This document shows positions 2,533-62,429 of a DNA stretch of 64,000 nucleotides, piece after piece (position 1 is the first letter of the stretch; each line of letters begins with the position of its first letter). Position numbers and translations under genes: made by a program. The DNA comes from Variovorax sp. OV329 (GTDB lineage: Bacteria; Pseudomonadota; Gammaproteobacteria; Burkholderiales; Burkholderiaceae_C). Under the pieces are notes generated by a model. It saw only the letters and a program-made list of their open reading frames with translations, had not been told where the DNA came from and searched no databases. The stretch covers positions 372,001-436,000 of the forward strand of contig NZ_FOUG01000004.1 of NCBI RefSeq assembly GCF_900114785.1. The letters run 5' to 3'.

Positions 2533-2563
2533 TCACATGGTGCAATGATATATTCCCATGTGA
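2533..2563. promoter_or_regulatory. inverted repeat upstream of pyk
   Basis: TCACATGG at 2533-2540 is matched by its exact complement CCATGTGA at 2556-2563, with a 15-base AT-rich spacer that includes ATGATATATT. It sits 36-67 bases before the pyk start in the only AT-rich part of the pgk-pyk gap. It could be an operator or a 5'-leader hairpin; the sequence does not decide which. Confidence 0.45.
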
Positions 2564-2599
2564 GATAAGCATAACGACTCACCCAGGAGACCCTGCACC

Positions 2600-4048
2600 A
2601 TGGCCGCTGTCCGCCTTCCCCGCCACGCCACCAAGATCGTCGCCACCCTCGGCCCGGCGACCAACACGATGGAAATCATCGAGCAGATGATCCATCACAA
2701 GGTGAGCTGCATGCGGCTGAACTTCAGCCACGGCACCGCGCAGGACCACATCGACCGCGCCGCCATGGTCCGCGAGGCCTCGCGCCGCGCCGGCCGCGAG
2801 ATCGCCATCATGGCCGACCTGCAGGGGCCCAAGATCCGCGTGGGCAAGTTCGCCGAAGGCCGGGTGCAGCTGGACGCGGGCGCCAAGTTCGTCCTGGATG
2901 CCGCCCGCACCGAGCTGGGCGACATCAGCGCCGTGGGCCTGGACTACAAGGACCTGCCGCGCGACGTGAAGCCGGGCGACCGCCTGCTGCTCAACGACGG
3001 CCTGATCGTGCTGAGCGTGGATGCGGTGCGCGGCGACGCGGTGCACACCACCGTTCGCCTGGGCGGCGTGCTGTCCAACAACAAGGGCATCAACAAGCAG
3101 GGCGGCGGCCTGACGGCCCCGGCGCTGACGGCCAAGGACATGGAGGACATCAAGACCGCCATGAGCTTCCAGGCCGACTACGTGGCCGTGAGCTTTCCCA
3201 AGAGCGCCACCGACATGGAGATGGCCCGCCAGCTGTGCAACGTGGCGGCGGCCGAGTTCGGCCACCGTCCCGCGCTCATCGCCAAGATCGAACGCGCCGA
3301 GGCCATTCCCAAGCTGGAAGAAATCCTGCGCGCCAGCGACGGCATCATGGTCGCGCGCGGCGACCTGGCGGTGGAGGTGGGCAACGCGGCCGTTCCGGCG
3401 CTGCAGAAGAAGATGATCCGCATGGCGCGCGAGATGGACAAGGTCGTCATCACCGCCACGCAGATGATGGAATCCATGATCAGCAACCCGGTGCCCACCC
3501 GCGCCGAGGTGAGCGACGTGGCCAACGCGGTGCTGGACGGCACCGACGCCGTCATGACCTCGGCCGAGACCGCCTCGGGCAAGTATCCGCTGGAGACGGT
3601 GCAGGAGATGAGCCGCATCTGCGAAGCCGCCGAACTCGCCGAGGACAAGCGCCTGGACGCCGACTTCAGCGGCCAGGACTACAGCCGCATCGACCAGTCC
3701 ATTGCCATGGGCGCGCTCTTCGTGGCGCACCACCTGGGCGCCAAGGCCATCGTGGCGCTGACCGAATCGGGCTCCACTCCGCTGTGGATGAGCCGCCACC
3801 GCGCCCACATCCCCATGTACGCGCTGACCTCGCGCCTGGCGACGCAGCGCAAGATGGCGCTGTACCGCAACGTGCGCCCGCTGCTGATGGACACCGAGAC
3901 CGATCGCGACACCGCCCTGGCGCAGGCCGAGGCGCACCTGAAGCGCCGGGGCATCGTGCAGAGCGGCGACGTCTACGCCATCACCTGCGGCGAGCCGATG
4001 GGCGAGCCGGGCGGCACCAACATGCTGAAGATCTGCAAGGTGGCCTGA
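2600..4048 (+). CDS. pyk: pyruvate kinase
   Basis: Converts phosphoenolpyruvate and ADP to pyruvate and ATP. The protein has 482 residues with the full family layout: TKIVATLGPA at the N-terminus, MADLQGPKIR, the active-site AKIERAEAI, ARGDLAVEVG, TATQMMESMI and the PTRAEVSDVANAVLDGTDA segment, then the C-terminal regulatory-type domain. The start has a good ribosome site (AGGAGA) about 11 bases upstream. It lies behind pgk but has its own 161-base leader containing an inverted repeat, so independent control is possible. Confidence 0.97.
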   Translation: MAAVRLPRHATKIVATLGPATNTMEIIEQMIHHKVSCMRLNFSHGTAQDHIDRAAMVREASRRAGREIAIMADLQGPKIRVGKFAEGRVQLDAGAKFVLDAARTELGDISAVGLDYKDLPRDVKPGDRLLLNDGLIVLSVDAVRGDAVHTTVRLGGVLSNNKGINKQGGGLTAPALTAKDMEDIKTAMSFQADYVAVSFPKSATDMEMARQLCNVAAAEFGHRPALIAKIERAEAIPKLEEILRASDGIMVARGDLAVEVGNAAVPALQKKMIRMAREMDKVVITATQMMESMISNPVPTRAEVSDVANAVLDGTDAVMTSAETASGKYPLETVQEMSRICEAAELAEDKRLDADFSGQDYSRIDQSIAMGALFVAHHLGAKAIVALTESGSTPLWMSRHRAHIPMYALTSRLATQRKMALYRNVRPLLMDTETDRDTALAQAEAHLKRRGIVQSGDVYAITCGEPMGEPGGTNMLKICKVA

Positions 4049-4071
4049 GGGCCACGCCTGCGGCGTCCTGC

Positions 4072-4392
4072 TCAGCCGTTGCGGAACAGGAAGCTGTAGG
4101 CGTTCAGGGCGGGCACGCCGCCCAGGTGTGCATACAGCACCTTCGAGCCGGGCGGGAATTCGCCCAGGCGCACCTTCTCGATCATCCCGTGCATCGACTT
4201 GCCCTCGTACACGGGGTCGGTCAGCATGCCCTCAAAGCGCGCGCTCAGGCGGATCGCCTCCAGCGTGCCCTCGTTGGGCAGCCCGTACTCGGGGCCGCCG
4301 AAGCGGGTGTCCAGGACCACGTCCTTTGCGGTGATGTCCTGCTCCAGCTCCACCAGTCCGGCCGTGTTCTTCGCGATGCGCATGCCGATCAA
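4072..4392 (-). pseudogene. acdS: 3' remnant of the ACC deaminase gene
   Basis: The last ~105 residues of 1-aminocyclopropane-1-carboxylate deaminase are recognisable: [40 protein letters not shown] and [19 protein letters not shown]. The intact PLP enzyme has about 338 residues; the N-terminal two thirds, with the PLP lysine, are missing. No ATG opens the fragment; it could only begin at a TTG. The family sequence stops abruptly near RIAKNTAG, where sequence of another gene begins on the opposite strand. This is a deletion remnant and cannot be active. Confidence 0.85.
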
Positions 4393-4395
4393 CTG

Positions 4396-4476
4396 CTTTA
4401 CCTGCCCGGCGTGCGGCAGATCCGGACCTTCGTGGTGCTCAAGGAAGTGCTGTCGACCACGCAGTTGCCGCTTTAG
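4396..4476 (+). pseudogene. acdR: 3' remnant of an Lrp/AsnC-type regulator gene (acdR-like)
   Basis: The plus-strand frame ending at the TAG at 4474-4476 reads [19 protein letters not shown] followed by TQLPL and stop. This is the typical C-terminus of Lrp/AsnC-family regulators, about 25 residues out of roughly 160. The DNA-binding domain is absent. In intact loci acdR is divergent from acdS, and the orientation here agrees with that. It abuts the acdS remnant with only a few bases between, so one deletion removed both promoters and both 5' ends. Confidence 0.7.
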
Positions 4477-4590
4477 ACCACTCAGGGCGTGGGTCTTTGG
4501 AGGCTTGACAGGGGTCCAGTCCTACGCCCCCCCTCGGTAGAATCGAGACAGTTTTTCACCGTCTCCCCACTATTCCCGCGAGGTAATCCC

Positions 4591-5655
4591 ATGGCTCTCG
4601 TCTCGATGCGCGAACTGCTCGACCATGCCGCCGCCAACGGCTACGGCATCCCGGCCTTCAACGTCAACAACCTCGAACAGGTGCAGGCCGTGATGGAAGC
4701 GGCCAAGGAAACCGGCGCGCCGGTGATCCTGCAAGCCAGCGCGGGCGCCCGCAAGTACGCCGGCGAAGCCTTCATCAAGCACCTGATCCAGGCGGCCGTC
4801 GAGATGTACCCCCAGATTCCGCTGGTGATGCACCAGGACCACGGCCAGACCCCCGAGATCTGCCAGGGCGCGATCGACCTGGGCTTCGGCTCGGTGATGA
4901 TGGACGGCTCGCTGCGGGCGGACGGCAAGACGCCGGCCGATTTCGCCTACAACGTCGACGTCACCCGCCGCGTGGTCGACATGGCCCACAAGGTGGGCGT
5001 CACCGTCGAGGGCGAACTGGGCTGCCTGGGCAACCTCGAGACCGGCGACGCCGGCGAGGAAGACGGCATTGGCGCCGAGGGCAAGCTCAGCCACGACCAG
5101 ATGCTGACCGACCCCGAGGAAGCGGCGCAGTTCGTCAAGGCCACCCAGCTGGACGCGCTGGCCATCGCCATCGGCACCAGCCACGGCGCCTACAAGTTCA
5201 GCCGCAAGCCCACCGGCGACATCCTGGCGATCTCGCGCGTGAAGGAAATCCACAAGCGCATCCCCAACACCCACCTGGTGATGCACGGCTCCTCGTCGGT
5301 GCCGCAGGAACTGCTGGCCATCATCAACCAGTACGGCGGCAAGATGAAGGAAACCTACGGCGTTCCCGTCGAGGAGATCCAGGAAGCCATCAAGTACGGC
5401 GTGCGCAAGATCAACATCGACACCGACATCCGCCTGGCCATGACCGGCGCGGTGCGCAAGTTCCTGGCCGAGAACCCCGACAAGTTCGACGCGCGCGAAT
5501 GGCTCAAGCCGGCGCGCGAGGCCGCCAAGCAGGTCTGCAAGGCGCGCTACATCGAGTTCGGCTGCGAAGGCCAGGCCGGCAAGATCAAGGGCGAGAGCCT
5601 GCAGGTCGTCGCCGCCAAGTACGCCAAGGGCGAACTGGCGCAGGAAGTGGTCTGA
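4591..5655 (+). CDS. fba: class II fructose-bisphosphate aldolase
   Basis: Cleaves fructose 1,6-bisphosphate (or, in Calvin-type members, also sedoheptulose bisphosphate) using zinc. The protein has 354 residues, the size of the Calvin-cycle (CbbA-like) subtype. Visible are [10 protein letters not shown] with the catalytic and zinc residues, [10 protein letters not shown], the zinc-binding [18 protein letters not shown] and the phosphate-binding [11 protein letters not shown]. The frame is open from 4489, but the family start [10 protein letters not shown] is at 4591. A -10-like TAGAAT lies at 4538-4543. A strong terminator follows. Confidence 0.96.
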
Positions 5656-5686
5656 GCCCCTCGCCTGATTCCGCCTGAGTTCACCC

Positions 5687-5711
5687 AGCCACCGTTCGCG
5701 GTGGCTTTTTT
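5687..5711 (+). terminator. intrinsic terminator after fba
   Basis: An 8-base-pair stem AGCCACCG/CGGTGGCT closes a TTCG tetraloop and is followed directly by six T (5706-5711). It ends fba transcription before purC. Confidence 0.9.
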
Positions 5712-5756
5712 CCGCGCGCACAATCCGCATTCCCGCCTGTCACACGTTCCAGCCCC

Positions 5757-6662
5757 ATGACCACTGTCCACACCTCCTCCATCCAGAGCCTGCCCCTCCT
5801 TGCGCGCGGCAAGGTGCGCGACAACTACGCGGTGGGCAACGACCGCATCCTGATGGTGGCGAGCGACCGCCTCTCGGCCTTCGACGTGATCATGGGCGAG
5901 CCGATTCCCGGCAAGGGCGAGATCCTGACGAAGATGGCGCTGTGGTGGTTCGACCGCCTGGGCCACCTGTGCCCCAACCACCTGACCGGCGAGGCGCCCG
6001 AGAGCGTGGTCACGCCCGCCGAGGTGCCGCAGGTGCAGGGCCGCTCCATGCTGGTCAAAAGGCTGCGCCCCGTGCCGGTGGAGGCGGTGGTGCGCGGCTA
6101 CCTGGCCGGCAGCGGCTGGAAGGAATACCAGGACAGCCGCTCGGTGTGCGGCGTGCCCCTGCCCGAGGGCCTGACCAACGCGGCCAAGCTGCCGCGCCCG
6201 ATCTTCACGCCGGCGGCCAAGGCCCAGGCCGGCGAGCACGACGAGAACATTCCCTATGAGCGCGTGGTCGAGATCGTCGGCCCGGCGATGGCCCAGCAGA
6301 TCCGCGAGACCAGCATCGCCATCTACGAGACGGCGGCGGCCATCGCCCTGCAGAAGGGCATGATCATTGCCGACACCAAGTTCGAGTTCGGCCTGGACGA
6401 GAACGACCAGCTGGTGCTGATGGACGAGGTGCTCACGCCCGACAGTTCGCGCTACTGGCCGGTGGAGGGCTACGAGCAGGCCCTGGCCAACGGCGAGAAC
6501 CCGCCCAGCTACGACAAGCAGTTCGTGCGCGATTGGCTGGAGGCGGTGCGCATCCACGGCAAGCCCTGGGACAAGACGCCGCCGGCGCCGCGCCTGCCGG
6601 CCGAGGTGATCGAGAAGACGGCAGCCAAGTACCGCGAGGCCCTGGAGCGGCTGACCGCCTGA
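5757..6662 (+). CDS. purC: phosphoribosylaminoimidazole-succinocarboxamide synthase
   Basis: SAICAR synthase of purine biosynthesis joins aspartate to CAIR using ATP. The 301 residues are typical of the longer proteobacterial/yeast-like form. Motifs seen: [11 protein letters not shown] (nucleotide loop), [33 protein letters not shown] and [14 protein letters not shown]. In related genomes purE and purK often follow closely; here about 11 kb of unrelated genes lie in between. A hairpin without a T-tract lies just downstream at 6696-6713. Confidence 0.97.
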
Positions 6663-6825
6663 TCCGCCTGGGGCGGCGGCCCGGGGAAGCGGCCAGGGCC
6701 CGGGAACGGGCCCACCGCGGCGCTCGCGGAATGTGAATAGATCACAAAACTCGCGGCAATACTCACTGCCTACTAGAACAGCAAATTTCCATACTTGCCT
6801 CATCTGGATGGATGAGGAGTACGAG

Positions 6826-7503
6826 ATGGAAATGAACAGCGTGATCGAGGTTTCACGTGCTGCTTTCGGCCTCGGCAGGGTCAGCGCGCCGCCTCCCGAC
6901 AGCCTGCAGGCCGCCATGCTGGCCCGCGTGCTCGACGAGATCGACCATGGCCTGATCCTGGTCGACCTCACCGGCCGCATCCTGCATGTGAACCATCCGG
7001 CGCGCTGCGAGCTGGGCTCGGCCCAGGCCTTGTGCGAGCGCGACGGCATGCTGTGGGGCAGCGACGACAACCGCCATCGCCAGGTCCGCCAGGCGCTCAA
7101 GGACGCTGCCCATGACGGCCGCAGCATCGTCGAGCTGGAGCACCAGGACACTTCGCTGTCGCTCGCCTTCATTCCCATGGCCTCGCTGCCCGGCGGGCGC
7201 GTCGACACGGTGCTGATCATGTGCAGCAAGCGCCAGAACTGCGCCACGCTGACCATGCAGATGTTCGCCCGCGCCAACCGCCTGACCCGCGCCGAGCAGA
7301 ACGTGCTGCGCCAGCTGTGCGACGGCCACCGCGCCGAGGAGATCGCCGGCCTGCAGGGCATCCGCGTGTCCACGGTGCGCACCCACATCAAGAGCGTGCG
7401 GGAGAAGACCGGCTCCAACAGCGTGCGCGAGATCGTGCACCGCCTGGCACGCATGCCGCAGGTGGTGTCGGCCGTGCGCATGGGCGTGCACGAGCAGGCC
7501 TGA
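6826..7503 (+). CDS. PAS-LuxR family transcriptional regulator
   Basis: A 225-residue protein. Residues about 25-120 look like a PAS-type sensor (VLDEIDHGLILVDLTGRIL, then HVNHPARCELG). The C-terminal ~65 residues are a LuxR/GerE helix-turn-helix: LTRAEQNVLRQLCDGHRAEE, STVRTHIKSVREKTGSNS. There is no receiver domain. ATGs occur at 6733, 6808 and 6826; only 6826 has a well-placed AGGAG (6815-6819), so I start there. It precedes the Crp/Fnr and cyclase genes and may control that block; ligand unknown. Confidence 0.82.
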   Translation: MEMNSVIEVSRAAFGLGRVSAPPPDSLQAAMLARVLDEIDHGLILVDLTGRILHVNHPARCELGSAQALCERDGMLWGSDDNRHRQVRQALKDAAHDGRSIVELEHQDTSLSLAFIPMASLPGGRVDTVLIMCSKRQNCATLTMQMFARANRLTRAEQNVLRQLCDGHRAEEIAGLQGIRVSTVRTHIKSVREKTGSNSVREIVHRLARMPQVVSAVRMGVHEQA

Positions 7504-7562: not shown

Positions 7563-8231
7563 ATGCCGTCGTCCGCCTTGCGTCGTCCGGCGCCGAATCC
7601 GCCGGCGCACCTCACCCTCCTCACCCCCGCGGTCGACCGGCTCGCGGCATTGGGCACCCAGCGCCGCTACCGCAAGAACACGGTGCTGATCGAGGAGGGC
7701 GACTCCGGCGACTCGATATACATCGTCCTGTCCGGGCAGCTGCGCGCCTATGTTTCCGACTCGCGTGGCCGCGAGATCACGCTGGGCCTTCACGGCCCCG
7801 GCGAATACGTGGGCGAGATGTCGCTCGATGGCGGCCTGCGCTCGGCCAGCGTTCAGGCGGTAGAGCCCACGGTGTGCGCCGTGGTGACGCGCGAAACGGT
7901 GATGCGCCACATCGCCGACGACCCCGATTTCACTCAGGCGCTCATCCAGCGGCTGATCCGCCGCGCGCGCCTGGCCACCGAGAGCGCGCGCAGCATTGCC
8001 CTGCTCGATGTCTACAGCCGCCTTCGCGCCATGCTCGAGCGCCGCGCCCAACCCCAGGGCGACGGCACCCGCCAGATCGCCGAGCGCCTGACGCACCAGG
8101 CCATCGCCAGCGAGATCGGCTGCTCGCGCGAGATGGTGAGCCGCCTCCTCAAGGACCTGGAGGAGGGCGGCTACCTGGCCGTGATCGACCGCCACCTGGT
8201 GCTGATGCGCGACCTGCCGGCGCGCTGGTAG
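7563..8231 (+). CDS. Crp/Fnr family transcriptional regulator
   Basis: A 222-residue regulator with an N-terminal cyclic-nucleotide-binding-type beta barrel (YRKNTVLIEEGDSGDSIYIV, then GPGEYVGEMSLDGGLRSASV) and a C-terminal winged helix (LTHQAIASEIGCSREMVSRL). The segment GEMSLDGGLRSASV resembles the cAMP phosphate-binding cassette (GE...RSA) of Crp proteins, and there are no Fnr-type iron-sulfur cysteines. An alternative ATG lies at 7542, but the -10-like hexamer at 7550 argues for 7563. It sits next to a class III nucleotide cyclase gene, so it is a natural candidate receptor for that enzyme's product. Confidence 0.88.
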   Translation: MPSSALRRPAPNPPAHLTLLTPAVDRLAALGTQRRYRKNTVLIEEGDSGDSIYIVLSGQLRAYVSDSRGREITLGLHGPGEYVGEMSLDGGLRSASVQAVEPTVCAVVTRETVMRHIADDPDFTQALIQRLIRRARLATESARSIALLDVYSRLRAMLERRAQPQGDGTRQIAERLTHQAIASEIGCSREMVSRLLKDLEEGGYLAVIDRHLVLMRDLPARW

Positions 8232-8233
8232 CC

Positions 8234-8425
8234 TCAAGAAAAGCCCGGCCTGCCGCTCAGGCCGGTGAAGGCGAAGCGCATCAGGTCGCCGATCGCGCCG
8301 GCGCTGAATGCCCCGCACGACACCCCGCCGGCCAGGGACAGGCCTAGCTCGAAAGTCGTGCTCGCCGTGCCTGTCTCGTCAGAGGCACCTGCGCTCAAGG
8401 CTGGCTTGCGCGGACAATCGACCAT
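8234..8425 (-). pseudogene. short ORF with a patatin-like N-terminal motif, probably a truncated remnant
   Basis: A 63-residue frame contains FELGLSLAGGVSCGAFSAGA, which matches the glycine-rich oxyanion-hole segment at the start of patatin-like phospholipases. The usual GxSxG nucleophile and Asp-Gly dyad that follow in the family are absent because the frame ends at 8234. The end coincides with a hairpin plus T-rich tract on the same strand. It could be the remnant of a deleted lipase gene or an unrelated small peptide. The remaining bases of the 8232-8562 gap show nothing else I recognise. Confidence 0.4.
8236..8265 (-). terminator. hairpin with T-rich tract on the minus strand
   Basis: Read on the minus strand, CCGGCCTG pairs with CAGGCCGG around a 5-base loop (8245-8265) and is followed by GCTTTTCTT. 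It can terminate leftward transcription of the short patatin-like frame and may also protect the end of the convergent Crp/Fnr gene. Confidence 0.55.
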
Positions 8426-8562
8426 CTGGCATTCTTGTGGCTATTTGAAACAATTTACCTAGGCCCGAGTATCTGTTGGCACCGGCCTTGCGGGAACAAG
8501 AAGAACATGAAGAATCCGGTGCCCATCCTGTGCTCACACGGCGCCCATCCAAGGATCAGGCC

Positions 8563-11500
8563 TTGAGCTCCTGCCCCAATTGCGGCGCCCCGCGCGAGGC
8601 GAACCACCGCTTTTGCCCTAGCTGTGGCGCGCGACTGGATGCGCAGCGTGAACTCAAGCAGGTGACGGTGCTGCTGGCCGACCTGTGCGGCTCCACCGAG
8701 CAGGTGGTGCGCACCGACGCCGAGGGCGGGCAGGCCTACCTGGACCAGGCGCTGCGCCTCATGTCCGAGGCCGTGAGCGCCTACGGCGGCACGCAGGTGC
8801 AGTGGCGCGGCGACGAGCTGCTGGCGCTGTTCGGCGCGCCGGTGGCGCAGGAAGACCACGCGCTGCGCGCTTGCCTGGCTGCTGTTGCCATGATCGATGC
8901 GATGAAGGCACGGAGCTCGCCCGACTCGCCCATGGCGGTGCGCATCGGCATCGATTCGGGCGAGGTGATTGCCGGCCCGGGCAGCGGCGACCTGGCCACC
9001 AGCTACCGCGTCGACGGTGCACCAGTGCACCTGGCCTCACGCCTGGAGAAGCTGGCGCCGCCAGCCAGCGCCTACATCAGCGGCAACACCCAGCAGATGG
9101 TGCGCGGCCAGGTCGACGCGCGGGCGCTGGGCGAGCGCGTGCTGCGCGGCTTCAGCACGCCGGTGGAGCTGTTCGAGCTTGCCGGCGGCCTGCAGGATTC
9201 GGCCGCCGGTCCGCTGGCGCGGCGGCGCTTCCTGGGTCCGATGGTCGGGCGCACGCGCGACTTCGACGCGCTGGCCCGGCTGGCCGACGAGGTGCGCCGC
9301 ACCGGCCTGCGCACGGTGGGCGTGCGCGGCGACGCCGGCATCGGCAAGTCGCGGCTGCTGGCCGAATTGCTGGCCCAGCTGGGCCAGACGGGCTTCACCA
9401 CCGTGTCGGTGACGGCGCGCAGCTACGCCAGCCAGGCGCCCTACAGCCTGGTGGCCGACATCGTTCGCGCGCTGCAGGCCACGGTGCCCGCTGGCGCCGG
9501 GGCCTCCCAGACAGCCACCGATGCAGCCGTCAGCGATCCTCAGGCCGACGCCCTGCATGCGGCCGCCCTGGCCGACCTGCTGGGCACCGGCCAGTCCGGC
9601 GAAGCCTGGAAGACGCTCACGCCCAACCAGCGCCGCGAGCACCTGGCCAGCACCTTCGTGCGTCTGGTCCATGCCAGCGTGGGCGGTGCGCCGGCGGTGC
9701 TGCTGCTGGAGGACATCTTCCTGGCCGATTCGAGCAGCCTGCGCTTGCTCGAATCGCTGCCGCGCCGCCTGAAGGCCCAGCCCCTGCTGATCCTGATGAG
9801 TTACCGCCCCGACTTCAGCCACCGCTGGAACGAGGCGCCCTGGTTCGTCGAGCATTGCGTCGCGCCGCTGGCGGCCGCCGACCTGTCCAGCCTGGCCGAC
9901 GAGTTGCTGGGCGGCGACCCCAGCCTGGCCGACACCCGGGCCGCGCTGCTGGAGCGCGCCGGGGGCAACCCGCTCTTCCTGGAACAGCTGGTGATGACGC
10001 TGGTGGATGCCGGCAGCCTGCTGGGATCGCCCGGCGCCTACCGCCGTGCGCCTGCGGAGGTGCTGCTGCGCGTGCCGGCCTCCATCCAGACCATCATCGG
10101 CGCGCGGGTCGATCGCCTGCCCGAAGGAGTCAAGGCGAGCCTGGAGGCGGCCGCGGTCATCGGCGAGCCCATCGATGCAGACCTGGTGGCCGCGGTGCGC
10201 GACGTTCCGCGGGCCGATGCCGAGCGTCACCTGCGCCACGCCATGTCCGGCGGGCTGGTGGCCAGCGATGCCTCGGGCAGCGACTACGCCTTTCGCCACG
10301 GGCTGGTGCAGGAATCGGTGCTGGCCAGCCTGACGCGCATCCGCCGCCGCCAGCTGCACCAGTCGGCCTTCGAGGCCTACCAGGGCCGCGCCACTGCGCA
10401 GGCGCCGGTGCAGGCCGCGGTGCTGGCCCACCATGCCTTCCACGGCGAGCAGTGGCAGCCGGCGGCCGAGTACGCGCTGCGGGCGATGGCGCGCTCCATC
10501 GAGCGCTCGGAGAACAAGGATGCGTTGCGCGTGTTCGAGCTGGGCCTGGACGCCGCGCGCCGCATCGAGGCCGAGGACACCATGCTGTCCTGCGAACTGG
10601 CACTGCGCGTGGAAGCGCTGGGCGCGCAGATGGCGCTGGGCCAGTTCGACGCCATCGTCTCCAACCTGGAGCGTGCCGAGAGCATCACGCTGGCGCTGGG
10701 CGATACGCGCCGGCAGGCGGCGGTGTCGCTGCAGCTGGCGGTCACGCTGTGGGCTCGCGGCAGCTACGAGCAGGGCCTGTCGGTGGCCACGCAGGCCGGC
10801 CAGGCAGCCGAGGCGGCCGGCAGCCGCAGCCTGCACATGGCCGCCACGCAGGCGCGCATGATGCTGCACCACGGGCTGGGCCGTTATGTCGAAGCCACCG
10901 AGGACGCAATGGCGGTGGCGCGCGACTTCGAGGTCGAGCTGCAGGCCCGGCGCCTGTTCCCCGGCTGGGCCGTGATGGCCTCCACCAACCTGCACGCCTT
11001 CATCGCCGACATCATGACGCTGCGCGGCGATTTGAAGGCGGCGCAGATGTCCTGCGATGCGGGCTATGCCGAGCTGGAGGAGCAGGACCACCCCTTCTCC
11101 CGCGTGCTGCTCGACTTCTCGCAAGGCGAACTGCTGTTGGCTGCAAAGCGCCCGGCCGAGGCCGCTGCCCTCTTCCAGACCGCGCTGGAGATGTGCCGCA
11201 CGCACGAGATCTCCAACATGTATCCCGCCATCCTGGCCCACCTGGGCGGCGCGCTCGCCTTGGCCGGCCGCCCGGCCGAGGCGCTGGCGCTGCTGGAGCC
11301 CGCGGTGGCGCAGAAGCTCTCGCGCGCGGGCGGGCGCTACAACGAGTACTACTTCCCCTATTTCCACGGCATCGCCCTGCAGGCGGCGGGTCGCCTCGAC
11401 GAGGCGCTGGCGGCGGCGCGGCAGGCCTGCGAAGCGGCGGCCTCCTTCAAGCAGCGCGGCCACGAGGCGCGCTCGCTGCTGCTGCTGGCCACGCTGGAGC

Positions 11501-11616
11501 AGCGCACCGGCCGCGAGCACGAATCACAGCAGCACCTGGCGCAGGCGCTGGCGCTGGCCCGGGCCTGCGGCATGGAGGACTTCATGGACCAGGCGGCGCA
11601 GGCCCACCATGCGTGA
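8563..11616 (+). CDS. zinc-ribbon / class III nucleotide cyclase / AAA ATPase / TPR signalling protein
   Basis: A protein of about 1017 residues. Domains in order: a double CxxC zinc ribbon (CPNCG...CPSCG, residues 4-24), a class III adenylate/guanylate cyclase domain (TVLLADLCGSTEQV, RGDELLALFGAP, VHLASRLEKLA), a STAND/AAA-type ATPase (Walker A GDAGIGKSRLL, Walker B VLLLEDIF), and a long helical TPR-like C-terminal half. The metal aspartates of the cyclase (ADL and GDE) are present, but the position before GD that is often lysine is glutamine. The frame is open from 8476; I choose the TTG at 8563 because AAGGA lies 7 bases upstream and homologues begin at the zinc ribbon. Its 3' end overlaps the P450 gene. 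Confidence 0.85.
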   Translation: MSSCPNCGAPREANHRFCPSCGARLDAQRELKQVTVLLADLCGSTEQVVRTDAEGGQAYLDQALRLMSEAVSAYGGTQVQWRGDELLALFGAPVAQEDHALRACLAAVAMIDAMKARSSPDSPMAVRIGIDSGEVIAGPGSGDLATSYRVDGAPVHLASRLEKLAPPASAYISGNTQQMVRGQVDARALGERVLRGFSTPVELFELAGGLQDSAAGPLARRRFLGPMVGRTRDFDALARLADEVRRTGLRTVGVRGDAGIGKSRLLAELLAQLGQTGFTTVSVTARSYASQAPYSLVADIVRALQATVPAGAGASQTATDAAVSDPQADALHAAALADLLGTGQSGEAWKTLTPNQRREHLASTFVRLVHASVGGAPAVLLLEDIFLADSSSLRLLESLPRRLKAQPLLILMSYRPDFSHRWNEAPWFVEHCVAPLAAADLSSLADELLGGDPSLADTRAALLERAGGNPLFLEQLVMTLVDAGSLLGSPGAYRRAPAEVLLRVPASIQTIIGARVDRLPEGVKASLEAAAVIGEPIDADLVAAVRDVPRADAERHLRHAMSGGLVASDASGSDYAFRHGLVQESVLASLTRIRRRQLHQSAFEAYQGRATAQAPVQAAVLAHHAFHGEQWQPAAEYALRAMARSIERSENKDALRVFELGLDAARRIEAEDTMLSCELALRVEALGAQMALGQFDAIVSNLERAESITLALGDTRRQAAVSLQLAVTLWARGSYEQGLSVATQAGQAAEAAGSRSLHMAATQARMMLHHGLGRYVEATEDAMAVARDFEVELQARRLFPGWAVMASTNLHAFIADIMTLRGDLKAAQMSCDAGYAELEEQDHPFSRVLLDFSQGELLLAAKRPAEAAALFQTALEMCRTHEISNMYPAILAHLGGALALAGRPAEALALLEPAVAQKLSRAGGRYNEYYFPYFHGIALQAAGRLDEALAAARQACEAAASFKQRGHEARSLLLLATLEQRTGREHESQQHLAQALALARACGMEDFMDQAAQAHHA

Positions 11617-12853
11617 GCGCTGCCCCATGCGGGCCCTGGGCGCGCGCCTGCGCTACCGCGGCGTCGCCGCCATCATCCACCAGCCCGACCTGCTGCGGCT
11701 GCTGGCCTGGGTGGCCCGCAAGCAGCCCTGGTTCGGCCGCCTCATCCAGGCGGCGGCGACCCGCGCCGACGTGGTCAGCACCTTCGAGCGCTCGCTGGCC
11801 TTTTCCAGCGTCTCGCACCGCCCCAACCTGATCGCGGGCGACTTCGTCATCGGCATGGAGACCGGCGTGCGCCACGCTGCGGAGCGGGCGCTGCTGCAGG
11901 CGCAGTTTCCGCCCGCGCAGGACTTCGGCGCGCATGCCGCGGCCGAGGCGCGACGGCGCAGCGACGCGCTGCTGGCCGGCCCGGCGCGCGTCTTCGACCT
12001 GATCGACGACTACATGGTGCCGCTGGCGTGGCAGGGGATCAGCGGCGCCTTCGGCGCGCGGCTGCCGCACCTGGAACCCGGCGACCCGATGCTGATGAAC
12101 CTGCGCTACCTGGGCGCGCATCTCATCGTCGGCCCGGTGGCCACCGAGGCGGTGCAGAAGCGCGCGCGAGAAAGTGCCGCCGAGGTCAACGCCTGGGTGC
12201 GTTGGCACATCGAGCCGCTGCGCGAGGCGTGGACGCACGACGGCTTCGCGCCGGACCGCGAGGCGGTGGCGCGCAACGTCGTGGGCATGCTGTGGGTCGG
12301 GCACCCGGCCACGACGCAGAGCGGGGCCCTGGTCATGCAGGAGCTGCTGCCGCGCTGGCGCCATCCGGAGGTGGCCGAGTTCGTGGAACGCGTGCGCCGC
12401 CACGACGACCCCTGGAGCGATCCCTCGCTGCGCCAGCAGGCCAGGGACCAGGTGCTCGAAGCCCTGCGCATGCGGCCGCCCTTTCCCATCCTCACCCGCG
12501 CCGTGAAGCGCGACACCCTCACCGGCGCCCACGGCGAAGGCAGTGCGAAAGGCGGCGGGCGCTACACCGTGATGGGCATCGGCGCCATGTCCGACCCGGC
12601 CGCTATGCAGGACCCGGAAGCCTTCCGCCCCGGCCGCCAGTTCAAGGACCCGCGCGACCGCTTCCTCATGTTCGGCTGGGGCGCGCGGCAGTGCCCGGGC
12701 CGCGACCCGGTGGTGGAGATCCTGGCCAGCGCGCTGCTGGGCATCGTGCGCTTGCCGGGCCTGGACTGGGCCGATCCGCCGTGGCGACGCGTGCAGTTCG
12801 ACGGGCCGATCATCTCGGGCCTGCGGCTGCGCTTGCGCCCCGGGAAAGGCTGA
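11609..12853 (+). CDS. cytochrome P450 with non-canonical I-helix
   Basis: A 414-residue haem-thiolate protein. The haem loop is FGWGARQCPGRD with the cysteine ligand at residue 362 (codon 12692-12694), and the K-helix ExxR is EALR. The I-helix region reads GMLWVGHPATTQS and lacks the usual acidic-Thr pair that delivers protons for O2 activation. Families without that pair include peroxygenases and isomerases that act on peroxides. The start overlaps the cyclase gene by 8 bases, so the genes are translationally coupled. No ferredoxin or reductase gene is nearby. There is no membrane anchor. Confidence 0.85.
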   Translation: MRERCPMRALGARLRYRGVAAIIHQPDLLRLLAWVARKQPWFGRLIQAAATRADVVSTFERSLAFSSVSHRPNLIAGDFVIGMETGVRHAAERALLQAQFPPAQDFGAHAAAEARRRSDALLAGPARVFDLIDDYMVPLAWQGISGAFGARLPHLEPGDPMLMNLRYLGAHLIVGPVATEAVQKRARESAAEVNAWVRWHIEPLREAWTHDGFAPDREAVARNVVGMLWVGHPATTQSGALVMQELLPRWRHPEVAEFVERVRRHDDPWSDPSLRQQARDQVLEALRMRPPFPILTRAVKRDTLTGAHGEGSAKGGGRYTVMGIGAMSDPAAMQDPEAFRPGRQFKDPRDRFLMFGWGARQCPGRDPVVEILASALLGIVRLPGLDWADPPWRRVQFDGPIISGLRLRLRPGKG

Positions 12854-12860
12854 GCACGCC

Positions 12861-14789
12861 ATGGCCATCCAGCAGATGATCTGCTTCGTCACGCCCGACG
12901 CACCGCCGCAGGTGCCCCGGAGCGTGACGCGCCGCATCGACGCCATGTGCACGGCGATCGGCCGCATCCACTTCGCCACGCTGGCCTTGCTGCCGCCCGC
13001 GCCCGGCGCCTCGGCCCTGGCGCCGGGCTCGCTGATGCTGGAGATCGTGGTCGACGAGGACCTGCTGCTGCCCGACCTGGTGGACCTGATGCTGGACCAC
13101 GCCTTCGGCGCCCTGTGGCAGGTCTACAAGGGCGGCTGGAGCGGCCCGCCGCAGGCCGACCCGGGCACCAAGAGAACATGGCTGAAGGCCTTCCTGCTCG
13201 ACCATGCCTACGTGGCGGACGGCGGTTTCGTCGGCGCGCGCGACCGCAGCGTGGCGCAGGTGCTTGCCGAAGACGAGCTGTTCAGGGCCGCGCGCAAGGA
13301 CCTGCATGCCTTGCCGACAGCCGAGCGGCCCGGCGATGCGCGCGCGCTGGGCGAGCGCATGGCGCGCTGGGCCCGCGACAAGGGCTTCAAGTGGGTGGCC
13401 GGCCCGGCGCCGCGCTCGCGCTGGCGCAAGGGGCCCGGATTCGGCGCGGCGGACTGGGTGTCGCTCATGGTGCGCCTAGTGGTGCCGGTGTTCGCGCTGC
13501 TGGGCTTCCTGTATGCGCTGGGCTGGGCCACGCTGTTCTCGGCCGACCTGCTGCACGGCATGGGCCTGTCGATGCCGCGCGAGCTTTCGTCGGCGGTGGT
13601 GCTGGCCGGCATCACCATCGTGCTGGCGCTGGTGCCGCTGCTGGCTGCGCTGCTCACCGGCAGCGGCATCGTCGCCCTGGCGGGGCTGTTCGCCGGCTAC
13701 GCGGTGGTTGCGGTGTGGATCCTGGTGTCGGGCACCTTCAAGGCCATCGGCGAGGGCAACCTGCTGTGGCCCACCTGCTCGACCAACCAGGGCCTGCTGG
13801 GCTTCCTGGGGGTGCTGGCCTTCGCCTTGTCGGCGGCGATGGTGGCGCTAGTGCCGGTGCTGCTGAAATTGCGCGCGCCGCCCTTCTTCCCCTGGCTGGC
13901 GACGGGCGTCGCCATACTGGTGCTGCTGGTCCTGTCGTGGGCCTCCAGCCAGCTCATGTTCGGCGCCATGGAGGCCTACCGCAGCTGCAACGGCCAGCCC
14001 GCGCAATGGCAGCTGGTGCGGGACGCATCGACCTCCGCCCGGCTGGCCTGGTCGCTGGTCGCGCTGCTGCTGGTGGTTGGCGTGTCGGGCCTGATCCTGG
14101 TCTTCGCGACGCGGCTGGGACCCTGGCTGCTGCGCCGCTCCGACAGCCTGAACCGCCCCGGTCCGCTGCCGCCGCTGCCCGCTCACCAGGTGCATCCCAG
14201 CATCCAGGAATGCGAGGCGGCGCTGGCGGCGAAGACCAGCCACATGATCAGCCTGACCGAGATCCGCCGGCCCTACTGGCTGTTCCGCTGGGTGCTGCGC
14301 TTCTGGCTGTGGTTCTTCAGCGTGCTGGGCGACCTGGTGTTCACCGAAGGCGTGCTGGGCCGGGCGCACGGCATCAAGTTCGGCCACTGGCACATCATCG
14401 ACGACGGGCGGCGGCTGCTGTTCTGCAGCAACTTCGACAGCGCCTTCGGCGGCTACCTGGACGAGTTCATCCAGGGCGCGACCGAGGGCGTGAACCTGAT
14501 CTGGCGCAACAGCGAGCTGCGCCCGCGCGAGGCAGCGCGCGAAGACCAGCCGACGGTGGAGCTCGCACGCAGCTTCCCGCCCACGCGCCTGGGCATCTTC
14601 CGCGGCTGCAAGGCCGAGCAGGCCTTCAAGGCCTACACGCGGGCCAGCATGCTGCCGCACCTGCACCGCTTCGAGGCCTACACCCTGTCCAACCAGGACA
14701 TCGAGCGCGCCACCCGCCTGCACGAGGCGCTGCGCGGCACCCGCACCGCGCTCAAGGACGACCAGATCGCGAGGGCACTGGAATCATGA
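12861..14789 (+). CDS. unrecognised multi-pass membrane protein of the P450/peroxidase operon
   Basis: 642 residues of unknown function. The N-terminal ~190 residues are soluble. Hydrophobic segments lie near residues 199-220, 242-263, 266-291, 311-336, 342-366 and 395-417, with a further one near 474-498. The soluble ends share a faint theme: IGRIHFATLALLP with LMLEIVVD near the N-terminus, and FGHWHIIDDGRRLLFCSNFD after residue 506. Both resemble the strand pattern of dimeric alpha+beta-barrel proteins such as Dyp-type peroxidases. I infer a membrane partner of the next gene product; no enzyme family can be named. It starts 8 bases after the P450 gene and overlaps the Dyp gene by 4. Confidence 0.7.
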   Translation: MAIQQMICFVTPDAPPQVPRSVTRRIDAMCTAIGRIHFATLALLPPAPGASALAPGSLMLEIVVDEDLLLPDLVDLMLDHAFGALWQVYKGGWSGPPQADPGTKRTWLKAFLLDHAYVADGGFVGARDRSVAQVLAEDELFRAARKDLHALPTAERPGDARALGERMARWARDKGFKWVAGPAPRSRWRKGPGFGAADWVSLMVRLVVPVFALLGFLYALGWATLFSADLLHGMGLSMPRELSSAVVLAGITIVLALVPLLAALLTGSGIVALAGLFAGYAVVAVWILVSGTFKAIGEGNLLWPTCSTNQGLLGFLGVLAFALSAAMVALVPVLLKLRAPPFFPWLATGVAILVLLVLSWASSQLMFGAMEAYRSCNGQPAQWQLVRDASTSARLAWSLVALLLVVGVSGLILVFATRLGPWLLRRSDSLNRPGPLPPLPAHQVHPSIQECEAALAAKTSHMISLTEIRRPYWLFRWVLRFWLWFFSVLGDLVFTEGVLGRAHGIKFGHWHIIDDGRRLLFCSNFDSAFGGYLDEFIQGATEGVNLIWRNSELRPREAAREDQPTVELARSFPPTRLGIFRGCKAEQAFKAYTRASMLPHLHRFEAYTLSNQDIERATRLHEALRGTRTALKDDQIARALES

Positions 14790-16345
14790 TGATGCTGACG
14801 ACGAAGAAGGACGAGGCGCAGGAAAGCTTCCGGCAGGGCTTCGACGACATCCCGGCCATCGTGGGCACCGGGCTGCCGCAGCTGCGCCGGGCGCGCTACC
14901 TGCTGGTGCAGGTGCAGGAAGCGCGCGCGGCTCGCCAGTGGCTGCGCGAGCTGATGAACAGCGCCGTCGTGCACAGCCTGGCGCGCGTGCGCGCCCGCGC
15001 GGCGCCGCGCAGGAAGCCCAAGGAAGGCCCCGGTCCCAAGCCTTCGCGCGACGTGCGCGAGATGGTCACGCTGGCCTTCAGCCACGCCGGCCTGGGCGTG
15101 CTGGGCCTGAAGGAGGACAAGCGCTTTCCCTTCCCCACCGCCTTCGCGGCCGGCGGCGCCAGCGCGCTGCGGCGACGCCTGCTGGGCGACGCGCAGGAGC
15201 CGGCCTGGCAGTGGGGCGACGTGGCCTCGGACGCTGCCTTCCAGGCCCACATCTTCGTGGCCCACTACTGGAGCGAGACGGATGTGCCTCAGCCGCTGGC
15301 GTTGCTCGACCCGGCGCGCCTGCCGGCTGGCCTGCGTGCCCTGAGCGTGGCCAGCTGTCCCAGCTACATTGCCGCACCCAGCGCGGATCCGGCCGTGTTC
15401 GAGCCCTTCGGCTTTCGCGACGGCATCGGCCAGCCGGTGATCGAGGGCATGGGGCTTTCGCGGGCGGAGAAGAAGGCCCGGGACGAGTCCGCCGGGCTCT
15501 TCGACGACCGGCTGATCCAGCCCGGCGAGTTCGTGCTCGGCCAGGTCAACGAATACGGCGAGCGTGCCTACTGCCCCAACGTGGAAGGCTGGCCGCGCAG
15601 CGCCTCGGCCGAGTCGGGCTTCGCCCGCAACGGCACCTACCTGGCGGTGCGCCAGATCGAGCAGCACGTGGCGGTGTTCAACCGCTTCACCGCCGATCAT
15701 TCGGTGCCCATGATCGGCAACCTGATGGTGGGCCGGCGCAAGCCGGACGCGAGCTGCCCGCACGAGGCCGGCTACTCGGTGCTGGGCAGCACGGTGCCGC
15801 CTTCGGAGATCGACGCCTTCCGCTACCTCACGCTGGACGCCAACGGCCTGGAGTGCCCGCGCGGCGCCCATGCGCGGCGCGCCAACCCGCGCGACGCGCT
15901 GGGCCTGCGGGTGGAAGACGGCATCGCCGGGGCCAAGCTGCATCGGCTGCTGCGGCGCGGGCGCGTGTACTCCGAAGGCTGCACGCAGGCTTCGGGCGCC
16001 GATGCCTGCGAAGGACACCCGGCGGGCCGCGAAGGCGACACGCCCTGCGGCCGCGGCCTGATGTTCGTGGCGCTCAACACCGATTTCGAGCGGCAGTTCG
16101 AGTTCGTGCAGAAGAGCTGGCTCGCCGGCTCGCGCTTCGGCGACCTGTCCGACGAGCAGGACCCGCTGCTGGGCACCGACCCGCAGCGCAGCTTCAGCGT
16201 GCAGGGCTGCCCGGTGGGCGAGCGCATCGGCCCGCTGCCGCGCTTCACCACCGTGCGTGGCGGCGGCTACTTCTTCGCGCCCAGCCTCACGGCCCTGCGC
16301 TGGATGGTGCAAGAGAAGGAAATGGCGGCGCTGCAGCCCGCCTGA
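14786..16345 (+). CDS. Dyp-type haem peroxidase
   Basis: A 519-residue dye-decolourising-type peroxidase. The distal GxxDG motif is seen as FGFRDGIGQP, and the proximal haem histidine lies in CPRGAHARRANPRD. There is no Tat or Sec signal at the N-terminus, so it is cytoplasmic or bound through the preceding membrane protein. It is longer than the EfeB/YfeX types and resembles the larger Dyp subfamilies. The ATG overlaps the TGA of the membrane protein gene (ATGA). It is the last gene of the cyclase-P450-membrane protein-peroxidase operon. Confidence 0.9.
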   Translation: MMMLTTKKDEAQESFRQGFDDIPAIVGTGLPQLRRARYLLVQVQEARAARQWLRELMNSAVVHSLARVRARAAPRRKPKEGPGPKPSRDVREMVTLAFSHAGLGVLGLKEDKRFPFPTAFAAGGASALRRRLLGDAQEPAWQWGDVASDAAFQAHIFVAHYWSETDVPQPLALLDPARLPAGLRALSVASCPSYIAAPSADPAVFEPFGFRDGIGQPVIEGMGLSRAEKKARDESAGLFDDRLIQPGEFVLGQVNEYGERAYCPNVEGWPRSASAESGFARNGTYLAVRQIEQHVAVFNRFTADHSVPMIGNLMVGRRKPDASCPHEAGYSVLGSTVPPSEIDAFRYLTLDANGLECPRGAHARRANPRDALGLRVEDGIAGAKLHRLLRRGRVYSEGCTQASGADACEGHPAGREGDTPCGRGLMFVALNTDFERQFEFVQKSWLAGSRFGDLSDEQDPLLGTDPQRSFSVQGCPVGERIGPLPRFTTVRGGGYFFAPSLTALRWMVQEKEMAALQPA

Positions 16346-16363
16346 AGGCGTGCGCCGGCTGCG

Positions 16364-16816
16364 CTACTTGTTGCTGCCGTCCAGCTTGGCCAGGGTCTGG
16401 CCTCGGGCATCGAGCAGGATCAGTTCATTGCCTGCCAGGCTGTAGCTGGCAGTGGCCTGGAGCGCGGCGAGGAAACGGGTCTCCAACTGGCCACGCGAGG
16501 GGTCCAGGCAGGCCATGCGGGTGGAGGCCAGTGGCCCGATCTTCAGCTGGGTGCCGCTGCGCTGGAAGCTGCCCGAGATGCGGTTGCAGCCGCCCGAGCC
16601 GCTCACACGCTGGCTGCCGCCGTCGAACATCACCTGCACCGCCTGCCGCGGGTCATCGCTGGGGATCACCGGCTGCGAGTCGATGCTCGCCAGCTTCCAG
16701 GTGCGCGCCTCGATCGGCTGGTCCAGGCTCACGCTGGCGCATCCGGTGGCCGCGACTGCCAGCAACACAAGGGGCAGGGCCAGCCGGCCGGCGGCAAGTC
16801 GCGCAAGAAATCGCAT
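16364..16816 (-). CDS. META domain lipoprotein (HslJ-like)
   Basis: A 150-residue envelope protein. It has a signal peptide ending in a lipobox-like AATGC near residue 25, then a META domain: WKLASIDSQPV, VSGSGGCNRISGSFQ, IGPLASTRMACLDP. The glycine-rich CNR segment and the ACLDP segment are typical of HslJ-like proteins linked to stress or antibiotic tolerance. The frame could start 6 codons earlier, but MRFLARL gives a normal signal peptide. It is convergent with the Dyp gene. Confidence 0.85.
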   Translation of the reverse strand: MRFLARLAAGRLALPLVLLAVAATGCASVSLDQPIEARTWKLASIDSQPVIPSDDPRQAVQVMFDGGSQRVSGSGGCNRISGSFQRSGTQLKIGPLASTRMACLDPSRGQLETRFLAALQATASYSLAGNELILLDARGQTLAKLDGSNK

Positions 16817-16880
16817 GGCGGGTCCTCGGTCCAAAGTTGGGCCGATGGTAGCCGCACTCCGTGCAGCGGCGCGCGGGGCC

Positions 16881-17801
16881 TCAGCTCAGGACGACGCTCG
16901 ACAGGCGGCGGCGGTAGGTGGCCACCGTCGGATCGTCCGGCGGGATCTGGCCGTCGGCCACCTTGGGCCTGGGCGGCTCGATGATCTCCAGGATCGCGAT
17001 GTAGGTCTTGCGCGCCAGGTCCTCGTTCCAGGCCTTGTCGCGCATCAGGATTTCCAGCAGCTCGTCCATGGCCTCGGTCCAATGCTGCTGCGCCATCAGC
17101 ACCTGGGCGCGGCCGAAGCGGGCCTCGAAGTCGCGCTTGGCGGCGGCGATCTTCGCGTCGAAGTCCGCCAGCTGCGGGGCCTTGCCGGCCGGCGGCTGCG
17201 CGAAGTCGATGGCGTTCATCCAGCGCTGCAGCGCGTCCAGGCGGCGCACGCCGGGGGCCTTGGCGATCACCGGCGCGAAAGCCACCTTGGCGTCGTCGCT
17301 GCGGCCCTGCTGGAGCAGGAGCTTGATGTAGTCGAAGCGGGCGTCGTCGTTGGCCGGGTCGGTGGCCACGGCGTGCTGGAGCTTTTCCAGCGCGCCTTCG
17401 GTGTCGCCCTCGGCCAGGGCGGCACTGGCTTCCTCCTCGCTCTGCGCTGCTTCGGCCTCTTCGGCGCCGGGCACGTGCTTGTCCAGGAACTGGCGGATCT
17501 GGTCGGCCGGAATGGCGCCGACGAAGCCGTCCACCGGCTGGCCGCCGGAGAACATCACGCAGAAGGGGATGCTGCGCACGCCGAACATCTGCGAGAGCTG
17601 CTGCGAGATCTGCGGCACCTTGTCGGCGTCCAGCTTGGCCAGGGTGAAGCGGCCGGCGTACTCCACCTCGAGCTTCTCGAGCACCGGGCCGAGCTGCTTG
17701 CAGGGGCCGCACCACTCCGCCCAGATGTCCAGCAGGACCGGCTGGTTCATGGAGGCGTCGATGAGATCGGCCTGGAAGTTGTCGAGGGTGATGTCGATCA
17801 T
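16881..17801 (-). CDS. cnoX: CnoX/YbbN-like thioredoxin with TPR domain
   Basis: 306 residues: an N-terminal thioredoxin fold (about 1-110) with the redox motif WAEWCGPCKQLGP, an acidic linker with AEEAEAAQSEEEASAALAEG, and C-terminal tetratricopeptide-type helices. E. coli CnoX (YbbN) lost the first cysteine of its CxxC; this one retains WCGPC and is probably redox-active. The family protects clients from oxidative aggregation together with chaperones. The frame continues upstream through the divergent purE region, but MIDITLDNFQ is the family start. Only 36 bases separate it from purE. Confidence 0.88.
   Translation of the reverse strand: MIDITLDNFQADLIDASMNQPVLLDIWAEWCGPCKQLGPVLEKLEVEYAGRFTLAKLDADKVPQISQQLSQMFGVRSIPFCVMFSGGQPVDGFVGAIPADQIRQFLDKHVPGAEEAEAAQSEEEASAALAEGDTEGALEKLQHAVATDPANDDARFDYIKLLLQQGRSDDAKVAFAPVIAKAPGVRRLDALQRWMNAIDFAQPPAGKAPQLADFDAKIAAAKRDFEARFGRAQVLMAQQHWTEAMDELLEILMRDKAWNEDLARKTYIAILEIIEPPRPKVADGQIPPDDPTVATYRRRLSSVVLS

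Positions 17802-62162: not shown

Positions 62163-62429
<267 letters not shown>

Follow-up and report, generated by a model that had tools for sequence, protein, structure and literature searches.

A compact four-gene operon of Variovorax sp. OV329 and its relatives: evidence for a possible membrane-bound P450-DyP enzyme

The window, a stretch of 64,000 nucleotides from the genome of Variovorax sp. OV329, carries a compact operon of four genes, here called cyc, P450, mem and DyP (Table 1). All four reading frames are present and coding-like, and their arrangement is confirmed. Reading the junctions directly, cyc (stop codon 11614-11616) was found to overlap the P450 gene (ATG at 11609) by 8 bases, and mem and DyP share the 4 bases ATGA (14786-14789), both as given in the original prediction; between the P450 stop codon (12851-12853) and the mem ATG (12861) there is a gap of 7 bases and not of 8. 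The starts at 8563, 11609, 12861 and 14786 are backed by homologues beginning at or near the same residue, the first being TTG in the window and GTG in the two relatives L011 and L012. A LuxR-type and a Crp/Fnr gene are located upstream of cyc on the same strand. The former had been described as a PAS-LuxR regulator, of which the GerE part stands and the PAS match remains below threshold. In the region 8200-16900, a scan for sigma-70 promoters found none and terminator-like sites occur at chance level only.

Table 1. Features of the operon and its upstream region (positions in the window).
Feature	Position	Strand	Basis or remark
LuxR-type regulator	6808..7503	+	GerE HTH; PAS match sub-threshold; resident neighbour, outside module
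Crp/Fnr regulator	7563..8231	+	cNMP-binding domain PF00027, 82.9 bits; possible module regulator
Inverted-repeat-like block, candidate regulator or promoter site	8435..8453	+	Alignment of window, L011 and L012
cyc: protein of 1017 aa with zinc ribbon, class III cyclase-like, AAA_16 ATPase and TPR parts	8563..11616	+	Pfam domains; predicted signalling switch
Atypical cytochrome P450, 414 aa	11609..12853	+	
P450 I-helix Pro-Ala, acid-alcohol position	12305..12310	+	
P450 haem-ligand Cys (FGWGARQCPG)	12692..12694	+	
mem: membrane protein of 642 aa, six TM helices flanked by the two halves (N and C) of a predicted dimeric alpha+beta barrel	12861..14789	+	
mem N-terminal alpha+beta half, residues 1-180	12861..13400	+	Predicted secondary structure
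mem six-helix membrane domain, from about residue 196 to 430	13446..14150	+	
mem C-terminal alpha+beta half, residues 457-642, most conserved part	14229..14786	+	
DyP-type peroxidase, 519 aa	14786..16345	+	
DyP distal GxxDG motif (GFRDGIGQP)	15410..15436	+	
DyP proximal-His motif (GAHARRANPRD)	15863..15895	+	

The four gene identities proposed originally were recovered: Pfam detected a zinc ribbon, Guanylate_cyc, AAA_16 and TPR in cyc, p450 in the second gene (33.7 bits, cut-off 22.8) and Dyp_perox_C in the fourth (26.6 bits, cut-off 20). For mem, neither Pfam (E<=0.1) nor NCBIfam (E<=0.01) gave a match, and six TM helices are predicted, in agreement with its description as a multi-pass protein without a recognised family.

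The same gene order is found in Variovorax soli and two MAGs (74-81% identity), in two further congeners (L110 and L111, 49-63% identity) and in other families and classes. The set thus recurs outside near relatives, a point on which the original prediction had depended. In all 46 further loci, which were found via the membrane protein, a DyP gene is located within 1.3 kb of the mem homologue. The haem partner is a P450 in 24 of these loci and a catalase-like protein in 14; none has both. Eight have neither within the part covered, two of them (L013 and L115) lying on short contigs. For the weak matches G344 (one internal stop) and G145, mem or DyP was not found. In six loci (L076-L081), P450, membrane part and DyP form a single protein of about 1400 aa in the order of the window. 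Altogether 117 fused proteins above 1200 aa were listed (1294-1515 aa), from Mesorhizobium, Chelativorans, Nitratireductor and others; where the source supplies a name, it is 'cytochrome P450', 'Cytochrome' or 'Dyp-type peroxidase', and in one case 'cytochrome P450/deferrochelatase/peroxidase EfeB'. Recurrence across classes and gene fusion support the view that the genes belong together, and since all three are one protein in Mesorhizobium, P450, mem and DyP are likely to be one enzyme. Among the open-access papers (without preprints) found in searches for the system and its components, no title or abstract describes a DyP-P450 pair or fusion. The 117 tri-domain proteins would represent a widespread, previously unread enzyme.

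That parallel operons carry a catalase-like protein where others have the P450 makes the idea of a lipid hydroperoxide as substrate directly testable. To our knowledge, only P450 (plant, fungal) and catalase-related proteins (coral) are haem folds that rearrange fatty-acid hydroperoxides. The catalase-like protein has no Pfam family match; against the coral allene oxide synthase structure 1u5u it gave a short and weak match (E 1.7e-4, 60 positions only). The sister loci also carry a GMC oxidoreductase and a c-type cytochrome. The matches of the latter to solved structures are weak and mostly confined to the haem motif (best E 0.016); as a lead, it may be kin to the fatty-acid di-haem peroxidases treated in PMC4496055.

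The P450 belongs to its superfamily by the Pfam match, the haem-ligand Cys (56/56 type-A rows) and the nearly invariant E278 and R281 of the ExxR motif. At the I-helix position of the acid that precedes the Thr in O2-activating monooxygenases, Pro is found in 55 of 56 type-A rows (the other being a gap), in all 117 fused proteins and in 23 of the 24 loci with a P450; L087 has Ala, so that the acid is absent from all 24. The outgroup P0101 retains Glu-Thr. Because of this loss a peroxide-driven reaction is likely, judging from the residues, and the family would be one of P450s predicted to be independent of a reductase. The alcohol Thr is retained in 117/117 fused proteins, which leaves room for O2 chemistry. 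An ordinary O2/NADPH monooxygenase for aromatic or terpenoid compounds, with DyP clearing leaked peroxide and mem as transporter or anchor, is nevertheless unlikely, given the missing acid, the fusion of P450 with DyP into one chain and the replacement of the P450 by a catalase-like protein in 14 loci. Moreover, Pfam detected no ferredoxin or reductase domain in the four genes of the window or the L076 fused chain, the neighbours in relatives being annotated in part.

For DyP, the distal Asp (D212) and the proximal His (H362) are invariant (11/11), which together with Dyp_perox_C places it in the DyP superfamily; the NCBIfam model TIGR01413 scored 80.3, under its cut-off of 100.5. Among the fused proteins, the distal motif is present in 117/117 and the proximal-His motif in 52/117 by a strict and 116/117 by a looser pattern, the remaining one reading GAHIRR. 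The familiar activity of DyPs is the reduction of H2O2 with dyes or comparable compounds as substrates. As far as we know, their physiological substrates are mostly unknown, and we know of no DyP shown to be a lipid dioxygenase; a natural role for DyP is what this system offers.

The structure model of mem shows two ferredoxin-like halves that close one dimeric alpha+beta barrel, with stretches of pLDDT <50 in the C half. According to this prediction, the two ends of the protein pair into a single barrel that is split by the membrane helices, and a membrane protein without any family thereby gains a predicted fold. A Foldseek search with the full model revealed no match at E<=0.001. A likeness to RND pumps, which head its list, was rejected (TM-scores only about 0.15), as was a common ancestry of the mem C half and DyP, for which a profile comparison shows no relation. 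The L032 homologue lacks a TM-like segment, and membrane anchoring is therefore not universal.

The original prediction had a product of the cyclase returning to the Crp/Fnr protein. Active class III nucleotide cyclases have two metal-binding Asp, a purine-specifying Lys and a transition-state Asn. In the alignment, both Asp are kept in the window, L011, L012 and L088, and the Lys is lost in all four (Gln in the window). The Asn is replaced by His in 5/5 close-type cyclases aligned, as seen in the window, and is kept in L034, L035 and L076-L079; L080, L094 and L095 aligned poorly and were not counted, and L087 and L110-L112 were not included. From these residues, cyclic-nucleotide production by cyc is doubtful. 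A cyclase gene is present in 15 of the 24 P450-type loci, with none in the stretch seen in the other nine, and also in the catalase-type locus L122. It occurs far above chance near 9 of 15 distant P450-type loci, not counting G405 and G371, which were picked after a cyclase had been seen there; with these, the count is 11 of 17 (0.43 expected). This control leaves out L116, L118 and L119 (P450-type, no cyclase), near relatives and catalase-type genomes.

Crp genes are likewise enriched: of the 15 distant P450-type loci, 7 have one nearby where 0.69 would be expected, and the one beside the distant locus L030 is 55% identical to that of the window. The window protein is a CRP by its cNMP-binding domain, well above the cut-off, and its Crp HTH (42.1 bits), and it has an Arg-Ser-Ala stretch like that of cAMP-binding CRPs. 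Part of the crp-cyc intergenic region, with the inverted-repeat-like block, is conserved in L011 and L012. These features speak for a loop in which cyc produces cAMP or cGMP as ligand of the adjacent Crp/Fnr protein, and the latter controls the operon. This loop is weakened by the degenerate cyclase site and by the persistence of the LuxR-Crp pair: three congeners that lack the operon still have it between purC and META, and a fourth has it next to purC; P450-type loci L035, L088 and L112 have a cyclase and no Crp in view. Despite the enrichment of Crp genes, we consider this loop improbable. A role in anti-phage defence was rejected: the cyclase domain is only generically similar to Pycsar cyclases (best 30.2 bits), and five other proteins gave no match.

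The frequent signalling-type partner (15/24), together with a TPR protein without Pfam cyclase match ahead of the fused gene in L080, would also suit a membrane haem sensor, in which the P450, lacking its acid-alcohol pair, and DyP report peroxide, NO or lipid to cyc and catalysis is secondary. Intact catalytic motifs in DyP, the nine P450-type loci without cyclase and the metabolic partners in the sister loci argue against such a sensor, which has a low probability in our view.

The best explanation, held at a little less than even confidence, is that P450, mem and DyP form one membrane-bound enzyme with two haems and a peroxide-driven P450, acting on a lipid or hydroperoxide, with cyc as switch. 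It builds on the observed recurrence, fusion, P450/catalase-like exclusion and I-helix acid loss and on predicted fold and topology; from there, we infer substrate, reaction order and signalling. A peroxide, in place of O2 and NADPH, would be the oxygen source of the P450. The two ends of mem would form their barrel on the same, probably cytoplasmic, side of the membrane, beside DyP. Alpha+beta barrels of this fold often hold hydrophobic substrates, and an unsaturated lipid or its hydroperoxide would be the most likely substrate. By analogy with the fungal dioxygenase-P450 pair, a hydroperoxide would be formed or reduced on the DyP side and then be rearranged by the P450, or presumably by the catalase-like protein that takes its place in the sister operons; cyc would serve as ATP-dependent sensor-switch. 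The haem-dependent, membrane-linked system of the original prediction is supported, and a peroxide or lipid as its substrate is supported as best guess. A bolder and rather unlikely extension is that bacteria evolved a lipid-mediator synthase of their own, one that is independent of both cyclooxygenases and lipoxygenases: DyP would make or handle lipid hydroperoxides on the membrane-embedded barrel and pass them to a self-sufficient P450 or a catalase-like isomerase, in one chain in Mesorhizobium and under control of the ATPase/cyclase-type sensor. Legumes, with which Mesorhizobium lives, use lipid mediators as signals; a link is speculation.

Several known systems share parts of this arrangement. 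From the cyclase to its end, cyc is similar to TOMM kinase/cyclase-type cyclase-AAA-TPR proteins (TIGR03903, 216.9 bits, residues 24-1013), but it is far below the cut-off of 705.75, and its front part is a zinc ribbon where the TOMM proteins have a kinase. DyP shares the distal Asp, the proximal His and the basic motifs with DyP-type peroxidases (PDB relatives 8re3 and 7anv) and differs from typical ones in that it always lies next to a membrane alpha+beta protein or is fused with it. The catalase-like protein weakly resembles the coral catalase-related allene oxide synthase-lipoxygenase; the match spans 60 residues only, and no lipoxygenase was found among the sister-operon genes scanned with Pfam. 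CYP152 fatty-acid peroxygenases (P450BS-beta, OleT) have Arg-Pro at the acid-alcohol position, whereas the P450s described here mostly have Pro-Ala or Pro-Thr and fall outside the CYP152 motif. No close kinship to CYP152 was seen; general bacterial P450s head the fold comparison with solved structures, and neither CYP152 nor CYP74 is among the best 50 matches listed. Both groups agree in the missing I-helix acid-alcohol pair, as given for CYP152 in PMC10988616.

In fungal DOX-CYP fusions (Ppo, linoleate diol and allene oxide synthases), the dioxygenase is N-terminal and belongs to the peroxidase-cyclooxygenase superfamily. The peroxidase found here is, by contrast, a DyP outside that superfamily and C-terminal, with the membrane alpha+beta domain in between. 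The window genes are merely adjacent, but L076-L081 and the listed fused proteins combine P450 and peroxidase on one chain, as do the DOX-CYP enzymes, for which PMC13049297 describes a haem peroxidase-type domain and a P450 of self-sufficient type in a single chain.

The four genes of the predicted operon, coding for a cyclase/ATPase/TPR protein (cyc), a P450, a multi-pass membrane protein (mem) and a Dyp-type peroxidase (DyP), were all found in the window. The predicted overlaps of 8 bases (cyc-P450) and 4 bases (mem-DyP) are present, and the gap between P450 and mem is 7 bases long, not 8. With Pfam and NCBIfam a family could be recognised for three of the four proteins; mem matches neither database, in agreement with its original description. 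The operon is preceded by pgk, pyk, fba and purC and followed by META, trx-like, purE and purK (META named by Pfam, the others by eye), and these surrounding genes look like housekeeping genes. At 62163-62405, an open frame resembling a lone ATP synthase subunit c was noticed by eye in the sequence.

Features of the operon in the window and of the second locus (L003) in the same genome
Feature	Coordinates	Size or basis
Zinc ribbon/class III cyclase-like/AAA_16/TPR protein (cyc)	8563-11616	1017 aa
P450	11609-12853	414 aa
Multi-pass membrane protein (mem)	12861-14789	642 aa
DyP	14786-16345	519 aa
Conserved inverted-repeat-like block between crp and cyc	8435-8453	alignment with two relatives
c-type cytochrome, GMC oxidoreductase, small protein, shorter mem, DyP, catalase-like protein	L003:3549-12588	

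Locus searches were started with mem alone, which gave seven matches in 200 genomes of the family and seven in 399 of the order. A profile of its C-terminal domain matched in 27 of 398 phylum genomes and 11 of 250 genomes from a second sample of the order; the four samples overlap, and the window's own genome is counted in each. All matching genomes from these searches were opened, and the mem matches in G344 and G145 (L123, L124) turned out to be false. When named loci and those of the genus are added, the set comprises 46 loci in addition to the window (L003, L010-L017, L030-L035, L076-L095, L110-L112, L115-L122), not counting L113, on the same contig as L010, and L114, a control without the operon. 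Using own profiles built from the first loci, a DyP match was detected at most 1.3 kb from the mem match in 46/46 loci and a P450 in 24 (L010-L012, L030, L034, L035, L076-L081, L085, L087, L088, L090, L091, L093, L110-L112, L116, L118, L119); absence of recurrence outside near relatives, named as a refutation of the operon, was not observed. A catalase-like protein was found in 14 loci (L003, L014-L017, L031, L033, L082-L084, L089, L092, L117, L122; weak in L089, L092, L117 and L122, with 33-89 bits and some matches split into two pieces), never together with a P450 (0/46), and eight loci contain neither (L013, L032, L086, L094, L095, L115, L120, L121; L013 and L115 on short contigs). The module is real and conserved and, as far as the literature search reaches, undescribed. 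The 1119-aa mem of L030 (4084-7443) has a hugely enlarged membrane domain with 19 TM-like segments, and in L034 a patatin-like phospholipase gene (4648-5790) abuts a fused mem-DyP gene with its end.

The window's own genome carries a second, catalase-type locus of six genes (L003, G000:C14), whose c-type cytochrome was called a lipoprotein by eye. This set is repeated in L014-L017 and L082 and partially in L013, L083 and L084. Pfam has no match for the catalase-like family, whose profile hits 1u5u, a coral allene oxide synthase (E 1.7e-4, 60 positions). GMC enzymes often produce H2O2.

In 11 loci mem and DyP share a single reading frame, and in six of these (L076-L081) P450, mem and DyP form a single chain of about 1400 aa with the domain order of the window genes. 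In L083 one reading frame (9144-11390) encodes both DyP and the catalase-like protein, and therefore both alternative haem partners occur joined to DyP. P450, mem and DyP very likely act as one unit. A database search with the L076 protein yielded 188 clusters (E<=1e-30), of which 120 were listed, 117 of them exceeding 1200 aa; sources among the listed matches include Mesorhizobium, Chelativorans, Nitratireductor, Pseudaminobacter, Aquamicrobium and a Methylobacterium MAG, and relatives are mostly annotated merely as cytochrome P450 or Dyp-type peroxidase. The fused gene of L076-L079 has a same-strand cyclase/TPR gene immediately in front of it and is followed by a Crp gene in convergent orientation (neighbours of L076 and L078 checked with Pfam). 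In L080, a TPR protein without Pfam cyclase match (4212-5909) occupies the place of the cyclase/TPR gene. L094 (7348-10953) and L095 (4310-8110) show a third kind of fusion, in which mem-DyP is extended by about 450 C-terminal residues without Pfam match, again with a cyclase gene nearby.

Within Variovorax, mem was found in 6 of 61 congeneric genomes (E<=1e-50). Among named genomes, Variovorax soli (L010) and two Proteobacteria MAGs match most closely. In the locus comparison, excluding G1009, the order purC-luxR-crp-cyc-P450-mem-DyP-META is identical to the window in L011, L012, L110 (G1004) and L111 (G986). V. soli agrees from cyc onward, where its contig starts, and L112 (G979) contains the four genes, with purC, crp and luxR absent from the stretch in view. 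The operon is patchy at one genomic site and the LuxR-Crp pair is independent of it, because congeners without a mem match (G957, G960, G954) have purC-luxR-crp-META with no operon between, and purC-luxR-crp is retained in G955.

The cyclase gene was found in 15/24 P450-type, 1/14 catalase-type and 2/8 other loci; the single catalase-type case, an exception to the P450 link, is L122, with an adjoining cyclase/ATPase gene (1290-5572). For the 15 distant loci of P450 type obtained in the first rounds (four genomes from one genus, two from another), cyclase was observed in 9 versus 0.37 expected by chance and Crp in 7 versus 0.69, the figures being approximate as each genome's Guanylate_cyc and HTH_Crp_2 matches were counted by Pfam and locus presence by own profiles. 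With one entry per genus, and two genomes added after the fact, the values are 7/12 versus 0.34 and 4/12 versus 0.46. The cyclases of the window, L011, L012 and L088 retain both metal aspartates and have Gln at the purine Lys and His at the transition-state Asn; His is found in 5/5 close-type cyclases (these and L030), and those of L034, L035 and L076-L079 kept the Asn and not the Lys. Due to the Gln and His replacements, cyclase activity of the window protein is doubtful. The block between crp and cyc reads TTGTG-N9-CACAA in L012, is imperfect in the window and represents a possible regulator site. The proposed return of a cyclase product to the Crp/Fnr protein is the weakest part of the original prediction: the Crp association speaks for it, the degenerate cyclase site and the retention of LuxR-Crp without the operon against it.

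The window P450 has the fold and haem site of its type, with the I-helix LWVGHPATT. When aligned with the canonical outgroup P0101 (Glu-Thr), 55 of 56 type-A P450 sequences carry Pro in the acid column (the remaining one has a gap), as do 23/24 locus P450s (Ala in L087) and 117/117 fused P450s among the matches listed; the alcohol column is Ala in 55/56 type-A rows and Thr in 117/117 fused proteins among these matches. In O2-using P450s protons are delivered by an acid-alcohol pair, which P450 peroxygenases lack (PMC10988616). Pfam detected no redox-partner domain in the four window genes or on the L076 chain. We infer that the P450 would be peroxide-driven or an isomerase. DyP is likely catalytically active, judged from its motifs: distal GxxDG and proximal His are present in the window protein, the distal Asp and proximal His are invariant (n=11), and among the matches listed the distal motif occurs in 117/117 fused proteins and a loose proximal motif in 116/117 (GAHIRR in the last). 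Among solved structures, its closest relatives are an entry named 'Peroxidase, putative' (8re3) and an ancestral D-type DyP.

Concerning the suggested action on a peroxide or lipid at the membrane, a peroxide-driven reaction is likely given the lost I-helix acid, and lipid hydroperoxides are the best guess for the substrate, mainly because P450 and catalase-like protein are mutually exclusive. In its mode of action the module would resemble the fungal dioxygenase-P450 fusions; with a DyP as its peroxidase part, however, it does not belong to their family.
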